The notes under the pieces: generated by a model | Databases searched by the model: none | What the model was told of the DNA's origin: nothing | Seen by the model: the letters and a program-made list of their open reading frames with translations, nothing else | Origin: Gammaproteobacteria bacterium | GTDB lineage: Bacteria > Pseudomonadota > Gammaproteobacteria > Ga0077536 | DNA: 42,344 nt | Assembly: GCA_030429865.1 (NCBI GenBank) | Contig: JAUIFX010000013.1 | Location: 1-42,344, forward strand | Direction of reading: 5' to 3' | Translations under genes and position numbers: made by a program | Part shown: positions 4,064-21,194 of the stretch, one piece after another | Layout: every line of letters starts with the position of its first letter | Position numbering within the stretch: position 1 is the first letter of the stretch

Positions 4064-4996
4064 ATGACATCACGACACGCCTGCCTCGGCATTCTGCTCG
4101 CCGCCGCGCTCGGCGCCCACGCCGGCGAAGTGCCGGTTTCACCTTACGGTCCCGACGACACCCTGGGCGCCGTCAATCGCCTCAGCCCCGCCGGCGTGGT
4201 CAAGGCCGCGCAACTGGTGAAGACCGGCAAGACCTACCCGCTCGGCGTCGTCACCGGGCCGGATTCGCCAGCCTACCCGCCACGCTATTACAAGATGACC
4301 ATCCTGCAGCTCGACGACGGCGCCGGCGTGCCGGTCGGCGACAACGTCCTGACCGGTAACGACGACCTCATGATCACCTACATGGGCGTGGGCTCGCAGA
4401 TCGACGGCCTCGGTCACGTCGGCATCAACCATCACTATTACAACAACACCCACGTCAAGGATTTCGTCAAGGTGACCGGGCTGACCAAGTTCTCCACCTC
4501 CGACATCCCGCCCATCGTCACGCGCGGCGTACTGCTCGACATCGCTCGCCTCAAGGGCACCGACATCCTCGAGGCTGGCACCGCCATCAACCGCGCCGAG
4601 ATCGATGCCGCGGCCAAGGCCCAGGGTGTGACGATCAACGAAGGCGACGTGGTCCTGTTCCACACCGGCTGGATGAACATCTCCGAGAGCGATCCGGAAC
4701 GCTTCATGAAGGGCGAACCGGGCCTCGGCGTCGAAGGCGCGAAGTATCTCGCCGGCCTGGGCGTCGTCGCGGTCGGCTCGGACAGCTTCGGCGTCGAGGC
4801 CATCCCGTTCGAAACCGAAGGGCAGTTCTTCCCCGTGCACCAGGAGCTGCTCGCGCGTAACGGGGTCTACCTGCTCGAGAACATGGACACCCGCGCACTG
4901 GCGAAGGACGAAGGCTGGGAGTTCCTGTTCGTGCTCGGGCAGCCGCGCTTTGCGGGGTCGGTGCAGGCCATCATCAACCCAGTCGCCATCCGCTGA
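4064..4996 (+). CDS. Cyclase family protein (putative metal-dependent hydrolase), with signal peptide
   Basis: MTSRHACLGILLAAALGAHAGE signal peptide; cyclase-family pattern (GSQIDGLGHVG, GVLLDIARLKG, GDVVLFHTGW); GGGGAGA upstream of ATG. Confidence 0.85.
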   Translation: MTSRHACLGILLAAALGAHAGEVPVSPYGPDDTLGAVNRLSPAGVVKAAQLVKTGKTYPLGVVTGPDSPAYPPRYYKMTILQLDDGAGVPVGDNVLTGNDDLMITYMGVGSQIDGLGHVGINHHYYNNTHVKDFVKVTGLTKFSTSDIPPIVTRGVLLDIARLKGTDILEAGTAINRAEIDAAAKAQGVTINEGDVVLFHTGWMNISESDPERFMKGEPGLGVEGAKYLAGLGVVAVGSDSFGVEAIPFETEGQFFPVHQELLARNGVYLLENMDTRALAKDEGWEFLFVLGQPRFAGSVQAIINPVAIR

Positions 4997-5068
4997 CGGG
5001 CGGGCGAGAAGCTGCTGCGCTTGGCATCTCGTGTGCGGCCGGTGCTCGGAATCCTCGCGGTTACCCCC

Positions 5069-5081
5069 AACCGCTGCGGTT
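5069..5081. repeat. Palindrome AACCGC-T-GCGGTT, repeat unit 1
   Basis: Perfect 6-bp arms with 1-nt centre. Confidence 0.8.
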
Positions 5082-5303
5082 CCTGCGCGCCGCGAGTGCG
5101 CGACCCCTCTTCGCTCGTGACGCTTCCCGCCACCCCGTCCGACTCCTGGCGCAGCTCGGGTCACGGCAAGCCATGGCGAATCGCCGCATGCCGCGGTTCC
5201 TGCGCGCCGTCCGCACACGACCTGCCGGCGCTCGCGACGCTTCTCGCCCGCCCGTCCGATTCCTGGCGCGGCAGCAGTGCCCGGATTCCTCGCGGTTACC
5301 CCC

Positions 5304-5316
5304 AACCGCTGCGGTT
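5304..5316. repeat. Palindrome AACCGC-T-GCGGTT, repeat unit 2
   Basis: Same sequence 235 bp downstream of the first. Confidence 0.8.
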
Positions 5317-5567
5317 CCTGCGCGCCGCGAGTGCGCGACCCCTCTTCGCTCGTGACGCTTCCCGCCGCCCCGTCCGACTCCTGGCGCAGCTCGGGTCGCG
5401 GCAAGCCACGGCGAATCACCGCATGCCGCGGTTCCTGCGCGCCGTCCGCACACGACCTGCCGGCGCTCGCGACGCTTCTCGCCCGTCCGTCCGATTCCGG
5501 GCGCGGCAGCAATCCCCGGAATCCTCACGGTTACCTGCGCGCGTGACGGTGCAGCGGGGATGATCTG

Positions 5568-6296
5568 ATGGCGACACGCTGCCGTATCACGGCTTTCGGC
5601 TTCGAGGCCGGGCAAGTCATCGCGGACAAGTACCGCATCGAGGCCCTGCTCGGCGCGGGCTGGGAAGGCGAGGTGTATCGCATCACCGAGCTCGGCACCG
5701 GCATCGAGCGCGCCGCGAAGCTCTTCTTCCCGCACCGCAACCCGCGGAACTCGGCGGCGAAGCGCTATGCGATCAAGCTGCACAAGCTGCGTCACTGCAA
5801 CATCCTCATCCAGTACTACACGCAGGACTTCATCGAGTTCGAGGGGCAACGCATCACGTTGCTGATTTCCGAGTTCGTCGAGGGCGAACTGCTGAGCGCG
5901 ATGCTCGCGCGCCAGCGCGGCGCGGCGCTGCCGGCCTTCGAAGCCTTGCACCTGCTGCACGCACTGGCCTCGGGCATGGCGGAGATCCACATGGCGCGCG
6001 AGTACCACGGCGACCTGCATACCGACAACATCATCGTGCGGCGCTTCGGCCTCGGCTACGAGATCAAGCTGATCGACCTGTTCCACTGGGAAGCGCCACG
6101 GCGCGAGAACATCCACGCCGACGTGTGTGACCTGATCCGCATCTTCTACGACTGCCTCGGCGGCAAACGCCGCTATCGTCATCAGCGCGCCGAGATCAAG
6201 GCCATCATCTGTGGTCTCAAGCGCTCCCTGATCCTCAAGAAATTCCGCACTGCCGGCCAGCTCCGCGACTACCTGGAAACCATCAACTGGCAATGA
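5568..6296 (+). CDS. Ser/Thr protein kinase-like protein
   Basis: Gly-rich loop LLGAGWEGEVY, AAKLFF lysine, catalytic loop HGDLHTDN, LIDLF in the DFG position; no TM segment seen. Confidence 0.82.
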   Translation: MATRCRITAFGFEAGQVIADKYRIEALLGAGWEGEVYRITELGTGIERAAKLFFPHRNPRNSAAKRYAIKLHKLRHCNILIQYYTQDFIEFEGQRITLLISEFVEGELLSAMLARQRGAALPAFEALHLLHALASGMAEIHMAREYHGDLHTDNIIVRRFGLGYEIKLIDLFHWEAPRRENIHADVCDLIRIFYDCLGGKRRYRHQRAEIKAIICGLKRSLILKKFRTAGQLRDYLETINWQ

Positions 6297-7126
6297 AGCC
6301 CGTAGCCAACCCTGCCGAGTGCGGCGCGCTGCCGCGCCTGTACAGCGCGATGTCGACGCCGCAAGTCGAGATTTTCGCGACCCCGCGAGCCCAGGTCGCG
6401 GTCTTCACACAGCGCTCGCCGGAGCGCGAGGACGACAACCAGGACGCAGTGCTGGTACTCGAACACGGCAGCGACACGGTCATCGCCGCGGTTGCCGACG
6501 GTGCCGGCGGCTACCCCGATGGCGGCGCCGCGAGTGCGCTGGCCCTGCAGGCACTGGCGCGCGCCTGCGAGGAAGGCCAGGCGCTGCCCGCACGGGCCGC
6601 GATCCTCAACGGCTTCGAAGCCGCGCACGCGGCGATCAAGCGCGCCGGCGGCGGCGCGGCGACGACGCTCGCGGTGATCGAGCTCTGCGGCGCGACGCTG
6701 CGCACCTACCACGCTGGCGACAGCGGCATCGTGGTCTGCGGTCAGCGCGGACGCCTGCGGCTGCAGAGCGTCTCCCACTCGCCGACCGGCTACGCCATCG
6801 AAGCCGGCCTGCTCGATGCCGCGGAGGCCCTCCACCACGAAGACCGGCACATCGTCTCCAACCTGCTCGGCCTCGAGCCGATGTCGGTCGAGATCGGCTC
6901 GCCCGTCACCATGGCCGCGTTCGACACCGCCCTGATCGCGAGCGACGGGCTCTACGACAACCTCTACCTCGCCGAGATCATCGAGGTCATGCGTAAGGGT
7001 GCGCTGACCGGGGCGTGCGCGGCACTGGCCGCGCAGGCACGCTCACGCATGCTGCACACCCGGCCCGGCGAGCCCTGCAAGCCCGACGATCTCAGCGTCG
7101 TGCTCCTGCGCCGCACGCGCGGCTGA
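6293..7126 (+). CDS. PP2C-family Ser/Thr protein phosphatase
   Basis: SPEREDDNQDAV, AVADGAGGYPDGGAAS, YHAGDSG, ASDGLYDNL, KPDDLSVVLL; ATGA coupling with kinase stop. Confidence 0.9.
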   Translation: MKPVANPAECGALPRLYSAMSTPQVEIFATPRAQVAVFTQRSPEREDDNQDAVLVLEHGSDTVIAAVADGAGGYPDGGAASALALQALARACEEGQALPARAAILNGFEAAHAAIKRAGGGAATTLAVIELCGATLRTYHAGDSGIVVCGQRGRLRLQSVSHSPTGYAIEAGLLDAAEALHHEDRHIVSNLLGLEPMSVEIGSPVTMAAFDTALIASDGLYDNLYLAEIIEVMRKGALTGACAALAAQARSRMLHTRPGEPCKPDDLSVVLLRRTRG

Positions 7127-7639
7127 ACGCCGCGCGCGGCGCCCTGCCCGGGTCAGCAGCCGCGCCGCGACATGCGGCGGGATCGCGCCGGCGGCACGGT
7201 AGCCCGCCATGACGGCCGCCGGGATCTCGTCGTAGTTTCCGATCTCGCCGCGGCAGCTTGCCGCGCCGCACAGGCAACGAAAGCGAAACGGGAACGCCAC
7301 CTGGGTCACGCCGTAATCGAAGCGCAGTTCATCTCCCGCGGCGATATCCTCGAGCGCGACGAGGAACACGCCGCGTGTCGTCACGCGCACGTACGTGTTG
7401 GGTTCGCACGCATGGTTGATCAGGTCGTCCGCGCCGCCCGAGCGTCCGAGATAGAGGCCGTCGCCGATCTGCAGGTAATCGTCATGCGCGCCGGCACGCG
7501 CTGCGGCGTCGATCGCCGGCGCCTCCAGCAACTCGCCGGCGAAGCGCAGAAGGCGCGTACGCGCCGCGACCGGTTGCGCCGCGAACACGCCATGACCACC
7601 ACACGAAGACCGCACCTCGGTGCGCGGATATCGCGCCAT
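7043..7639 (-). CDS. SET domain protein (putative protein-lysine methyltransferase)
   Basis: MARYPRTEVRSSCGGHGVFAAQPV..., NHACEPNTYV, GDELRFDYG, Cys-rich post-SET-like CLCGAASCRG; GGAGG before ATG at 7639. Confidence 0.87.
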   Translation of the reverse strand: MARYPRTEVRSSCGGHGVFAAQPVAARTRLLRFAGELLEAPAIDAAARAGAHDDYLQIGDGLYLGRSGGADDLINHACEPNTYVRVTTRGVFLVALEDIAAGDELRFDYGVTQVAFPFRFRCLCGAASCRGEIGNYDEIPAAVMAGYRAAGAIPPHVAARLLTRAGRRARRSAARAAQEHDAEIVGLAGLAGPGVQHA

Positions 7640-7797
7640 CGAGCATTCCTCCAGCCCGCGCCGAATCAAGGGGATTCCGCCGCGGGTGGCCACTCCACCA
7701 AGGCGCGTCGTGCCCGACCTGGGCAAGGAGATCGGGCGACGTTTTATCGGGCATTCCACGGCAAAAAGCAACGGTTTCGTGCATGCGCCGCGTCCCG

Positions 7798-21098: not shown

Positions 21099-21194
21099 TG
21101 GCGAAAGAGGCAGGAGTCGAACCTGCCAGACGACCCTGCGGCCGTCTCACCGGTTTTGAAGACCGGGCGCCCCACCGGGTGGCGATGCTCTTCC
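21099..21194 (-). tRNA. selC: tRNA-Sec (anticodon UCA)
   Basis: GGAAGAGCATCGCCACCCGGTGGGGCGCCCGGTCTTCAAAACCGGTGAGACGGCCGCAGGGTCGTCTGGCAGGTTCGACTCCTGCCTCTTTCGCCA; 96 nt, long variable arm, UCA anticodon, GCAGG-TTCGACT-CCTGC T-arm, encoded CCA. Confidence 0.96.

Follow-up and report, generated by a model that had tools for sequence, protein, structure and literature searches.

Several described repeats invite comparison with the locus considered here. The Xanthomonas small RNA sX9 (Rfam RF02228) ranks with the bacterial sRNAs that are annotated most often (PMC9029176) and was reported to be up-regulated by copper in Xanthomonas campestris (PMC10924375). YPAL/RU-2, a 168-bp repeat, is a palindromic, intergenic and MITE-like sequence (PMC2229807), and ERIC/IRU is an imperfect palindrome found between genes in enterobacteria. 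Typical MITEs are deletion derivatives of one IS; those with IS5-type ends are short and non-coding. Here, we analyze a tandem repeat that separates a putative cyclase gene from a protein kinase-like gene in a 42,344-nucleotide stretch of gammaproteobacterial DNA (contig JAUIFX010000013.1; hereafter, the window), and we find that it begins with a full-length copy of a dispersed palindromic element.

Of the known sequences, sX9 aligns in register with the element's right half, tip hairpin and outer arm included, but it is only 76 nt long and its Xanthomonas copies have a short left arm. The best sX9 match in the window scores 26.7 bits, below the 44-bit cut-off, and by the Rfam rule the window is not a member of this family. 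The sX9 model is too weak for a survey of relatives (matches in 1 of 40 genomes), and a plasmid search with its consensus matched only Xanthomonas plasmids; with the window array as query, the plasmid search gave no match. The sole Rfam match above a curated cut-off in the whole window is a selenocysteine tRNA (21103-21194, minus strand). ERIC/IRU is similar to the element in size, in being an imperfect palindrome and in its intergenic, enterobacterial setting, and the two have a similar tip of about 22 nt (TCACKTAC...GTAMGCTCC). Alignment to the 127-bp ERIC consensus was no better than shuffles for most pairs, and our model of the element, R1, reached no more than 5.0 bits (E=0.34) when run on two ERIC loci. 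The resemblance of the ERIC tip (TCACTTAC..GTAAGCTCC; L365 and L366, about 255-275) to the element tip (TCACGTAC..GTACGCTCC) is not significant (E=0.34). YPAL/RU-2 shares with the window element its palindromic, intergenic and MITE-like character; its published sequence aligned no better than shuffles, and RU-3 gave no alignment beyond shuffles. The ERIC, YPAL/RU-2 and RU-3 sequences used in these comparisons all come from one paper (PMC2759123).

Enterobacteria and Aeromonas also carry a repeat of about 140-150 bp that has the same core, the same palindrome and the same intergenic position as the window element. With a dispersed copy as query, Yersinia, Salmonella, E. coli, Klebsiella and Aeromonas chromosomes gave matches of 74-78% over about 90 bp, at places without an annotated feature except in two Yersinia phage records. 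In E. coli, the repeat is present in 5395 of 5426 complete genomes, at a median of 5 places; the K-12 copy at 192634-192771, in the pyrH-frr spacer, scores 110.8 bits against R1. The Salmonella and Aeromonas copies touch a stop codon, as does the window copy. The outer arms and terminal repeats, however, are wholly different, and none of the six enterobacterial and Aeromonas copies that we read forms a tandem array. The repeat in E. coli possibly corresponds to RSA; our literature search for a paper naming it found none.

The array and its first unit

The spacer between the cyclase and kinase genes runs from 4997 to 5567, and the element and its array together span 4997-5535 of it (Table 1). 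Tandem Repeats Finder places the array at 5042-5535, with a period of 235, 2.1 copies, 95% match and 0 indels, and detects a nested 117-bp period (70% match) inside the 235-bp unit; the array is far above chance expectation. Two 235-bp units, 5042-5276 and 5277-5511, lie head to tail, followed by a stub that runs to 5535. Direct comparison of the units reveals 8 substitutions, at 5046, 5051, 5132, 5163, 5174, 5183, 5251 and 5264. The monomers, of about 117 bp (117-118), follow the order A-B-A-B-half-A; A1 and A2 are 97% identical, B1 and B2 are 96% identical, and A and B are 64-68% (about 66%) identical. The preliminary description of two units plus a partial third, lacking indels and each built of two diverged monomers, is borne out in all these respects, and its estimate of about 9 substitutions is replaced by our count of 8. 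It was also right that the array occupies nearly all of the spacer, but wrong to start it at 5048: the feature begins at 4997, and the left arm of the first unit (4997-5041) fell outside the coordinates noted earlier.

Table 1. Features of the cyclase-kinase region, in window coordinates.
Feature	Position	Strand	Evidence or remark
Putative cyclase gene	4064-4996	+	Pfam PF04199, 76 bits; TGA stop 4994-4996 abuts element
Full-length palindromic element, first array unit	4997-5137	+	R1 104.4 bits, E=3.9e-22, model 1-142
Left terminal inverted repeat, G+C-shifted version of CAGGCTGGTGAAAAAC	4997-5012	+	Alignment A1
Right terminal inverted repeat of first unit	5122-5137	+	Alignment A1, fold
Monomer A1	5042-5152	+	Inner hairpin, right arm and spacer TCCGACTCCTGGCGC
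Monomer B1	5153-5269	+	R1 27.5 bits at 5139-5244
Sub-threshold Rfam sX9 match in B1	5179-5248	+	26.5 bits, E=0.0096, cut-off 44
Monomer A2	5270-5387	+	R1 53.7 bits at 5264-5360
Monomer B2	5388-5504	+	R1 25.0 bits at 5373-5490
Sub-threshold Rfam sX9 match in B2	5414-5483	+	26.7 bits, E=0.0089, cut-off 44
Half-A, third A monomer truncated to its left part	5505-5535	+	
Protein kinase-like gene	5568-6296	+	Pfam PF00069, 42.8 bits; starts 32 nt past array

The first unit is a complete 141-bp imperfect palindrome whose first base directly follows the cyclase stop codon. Its left outer arm occurs only once; what is repeated is the inner hairpin plus the right arm. Positions 4995-5012 are 100% complementary to 5239-5256. 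R1 matches the unit over its full length with both arms, at 4997-5138, and it matches the later monomers too. This covariance model was trained on 32 copies that include the window sequence, and independent support comes from blastn, by which the first unit is 77% alike over 137 bp to a copy on contig C72 of the same genome and 72-79% alike to copies in relatives. Downstream, the kinase-like gene is directly followed by a PP2C-type phosphatase gene (5568-7126 for the two, plus strand), and a SET-domain gene lies at 7043-7771 on the strand opposite to both.

Dispersed copies, transposon ends and target sites

Two 151-bp copies lie in tandem on C72, and one of them is 77% alike to window positions 4989-5125; full-length copies, single and intergenic, are present in five other genomes of the same family. 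Of the 36 family genomes examined, 8 contain R1 matches, with 13, 8 and 19 matches in three species of the sister genus (g6). Across the class, 45 of the 369 genomes sampled gave matches, as did 32 of 399 genomes sampled across the phylum, only 3 of the latter lying outside the class; eight candidates were scored per genome in these two surveys, such that copy numbers there are lower bounds. The three genomes outside the class but inside the phylum (G401, G428 and G594) have E values of 2e-10 to 2.5e-7. Weak matches in the genome of the window (E 0.04-3) were judged to be chance or coding sequence after several had been read. The preliminary description had proposed that dispersed copies of a monomer would imply a repeat family, and dispersed they are, as the C72 pair and the family and class copies illustrate; what it took for an unrecognised intergenic oddity is a palindromic element dispersed through genome, family and class. 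A variant of about 200 bp, with an extra hairpin of about 60 bp in its left half, was seen at L336 (G549:C1, around 3920148-3920348), and similar lengths occur in G604 and G715.

The ends of these copies point to IS5-family transposons. Among the 21 copies tabulated for their flanks, namely those with a CAGGCTGGTGAAAAA-type end or a related one, 9 have identical 4-bp flanks on both sides, versus 2.3 expected by shuffling, and the flanks have the consensus YTAR. In genome G006, a 1.3-kb IS5-family element (C232, 3444-4748) has the same end (CAGGTTGGTGAAAAA) and a CTAA duplication, and its product is an IS5-family transposase that scores 283.8 bits against a cut-off of 140. Copies in G014 and G020 form a second group with another end, AAGCGGTCTCAAAAT, which is also that of a 0.9-kb element in G014 (C71, 86838-87716) with a CTAA duplication and a split IS5-type transposase. 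With both resident IS elements matching copies in their ends, a single genus thus contains one core with two kinds of IS5-type ends. Further end types occur among copies across the class. Like IS5-ended MITEs, the copies in relatives are short and non-coding; the better preserved among them have inverted ends in common with a resident IS5-family element and a 4-bp target duplication, and multiple dispersed copies lack a transposase gene. In these respects the element acts as a MITE whose hairpin core is conserved while its ends can be exchanged. Where a typical MITE derives from a single IS, this core has at least two kinds of IS5-type ends in one genus. At the window copy, the left flank is CTGA, the right flank is rearranged and no target duplication can be read, and the terminal repeats have diverged strongly from those of the IS elements; that this copy arrived by transposition is therefore something that we infer.

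Two further observations concern these ends. Near position 13201 of L248 (G032:C95) lies a short element with CAGGCTGGTGAAAAA ends and a different interior, as if other cargo travelled between the same transposon ends. Genomes G208 and G063 contain 103 and 76 matches, respectively, to one end sequence, GAGGTTGTGAAAAAA, many of them near contig ends or paired 120-250 bp apart, apparently an abundant IS/MITE system with the same core.

Insertion sites also appear to be biased with respect to genes. By simple heuristic gene calls, on which these statistics rest, 12 of 30 copies abut a neighbouring gene at its stop codon; among 57 other YTAR sites in these flanks, 3 do so (Fisher test, p = 1e-4, or p = 0.016 when sites inside genes are left out). 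Both the window copy and the C72 copy begin directly at a TGA stop. The YTAR consensus contains TAA and TAG, which would favour sites at stop codons and leave the gene unharmed.

History of the array

A sister species, assembled separately (G001, JAPOKK010000190.1), has a kinase that is 98% identical and, at the same place, A- and B-type monomers, which up to the end of its contig follow the order A-A-B-A-half-A. This related array at the same kinase gene indicates that the array is real and not an assembly artefact of a single genome. The source assembly is a draft in 291 contigs, and the sister contig breaks inside its array, circumstances in which a false repeat in a metagenome bin might be suspected; but two separate assemblies have produced related, differently ordered arrays at one gene, and the units differ by fixed substitutions, which makes such an artefact very improbable. 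The copy number given here is that of the draft, and the number in vivo may differ.

Monomers of the same type are 88-92% alike between the two species, versus 96-97% within the window. From these identities, the split between A and B is older than the split between the species, and the dimer expansion or homogenisation younger. That the same A and B monomers stand in another order in the sister species also suggests that the dimer expanded recently, although recent gene conversion would leave the same pattern as dimer duplication. The history given in the preliminary description, an old divergence of monomers followed by recent amplification of the dimer, agrees with the A/B identity of about 66%, the presence of both types in the sister species and the 96-97% identity within the window; of that reading as a whole, this part stands, and the idea of an unrecognised intergenic oddity does not. 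The kinase orthologues in G006, G014 and G010 have neither the element nor the cyclase upstream. Tandem growth is also seen at C72 (151 bp x 1.9). In a different family, L332 (G561:C7, 764-1114) is a tandem array of the element (125 bp x 2.8, 95% alike).

We propose that a single palindromic MITE-like element of about 141 bp inserted at the cyclase stop codon, probably mobilised by an IS5-family transposase that acted on its terminal repeats and duplicated a 4-bp target of YTAR type. The copied unit would later have lost its left outer arm, and head-to-tail duplication of the inner hairpin together with the right arm would have given A and B monomers that diverged before the sister species split. 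Recently, slippage or unequal recombination would have duplicated the A-B dimer, or gene conversion would have homogenised it. We put the probability of this origin, in which a dispersed MITE-like element enters at the stop codon and is afterwards amplified in tandem, at roughly 0.7. The dispersed family, the palindrome, the compensatory changes, the target duplications and matching IS ends in relatives, and the tandem history are computed from the sequences themselves.

Hairpin conservation and possible function

A well-preserved copy folds into a single hairpin of -79 kcal/mol (z -7.7). The first unit of the window reaches -73 kcal/mol, modestly better than its shuffles (z -2.2), and the fold of the whole window spacer has z -4.4. 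In alignment A1, 12 of 22 consensus pairs have both sides changed with pairing preserved; from this family to E. coli, 19 columns do not vary. Compensatory changes alone are no proof of RNA function, as copying from arm to arm in a palindrome can give rise to them.

The element is probably transcribed as the 3′ UTR of the cyclase mRNA, where each unit is predicted to fold into a stable hairpin, which could protect the 3′ end of the message or take part in its processing. If the element has any role, this one is the most likely, given its conserved hairpin and its place after the stop codon, on the same strand as the coding sequence upstream. That such a function exists downstream of the cyclase gene is nevertheless a tentative proposal, for which we would give somewhat less than even odds. 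Neither a T-tailed terminator nor a sigma-70 promoter was seen in the array region, where GC-rich promoters would be missed. A serious rival, to which we assign the same odds, is that the array is neutral or parasitic debris, a MITE tolerated on a stop codon and expanded by slippage, and without function; it shares the origin proposed above and departs from it only on function. The patchy presence of the element within the family, the difference between the arrays of sister species and the recurrence of tandem growth in unrelated copies are all in keeping with debris, and insertion at stop codons needs no functional selection where the target sites themselves contain TAA or TAG. The 19 invariant core columns, together with compensatory changes that extend to E. 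coli, exceed what simple decay would leave; still, constraint on source copies for mobility would also explain a conserved core.

It is also conceivable that the array is a tandemly amplified gene for an sX9-like sRNA, with one trans-acting sRNA per B monomer. The B monomers match sX9 over the whole model (E about 0.009), this model covers the right half of the element, and sX9 was reported to respond to copper in Xanthomonas campestris (PMC10924375). We regard such a gene as improbable, because the scores of 26-27 bits lie well under the cut-off of 44, no promoter-like site was found (GC-rich promoters would escape detection), and the abundance of sX9 (PMC9029176) fits a dispersed repeat better than a dedicated regulator. 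Least credible of all is a coding tandem repeat, that is, real proteins with 78-residue repeats. Several frames of the region are indeed stop-free, with long open reading frames crossing the array (180 aa on the plus strand, 457 and 410 aa on the minus strand), but a G+C-rich palindrome would be expected to have them. The unit length excludes a protein repeat, as 235 is no multiple of 3 (235 mod 3 = 1) and the frame changes with each unit, and the dispersed copies and base-pair compensation point to non-coding DNA.

A broader scenario, which we offer as speculative and rather doubtful, would have the hairpin core spread in Gammaproteobacteria by repeated recombination into the ends of different IS5-family transposons, aimed by YTAR at stop codons and kept as useful 3′-UTR RNA; the arrays would then be dosage amplifications, and sX9 a processed half of the element. 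The element links anonymous enterobacterial intergenic repeats, the numerous Rfam matches to the sX9 'sRNA' and IS5-ended MITEs, which are usually listed apart. If this is right, many sX9 annotations would be fragments of mobile elements and not regulators, and a core that swaps the ends of transposons would give modular MITE evolution a case that can be tested. The window array, for its part, provides a natural series of hairpin copy number at one gene.
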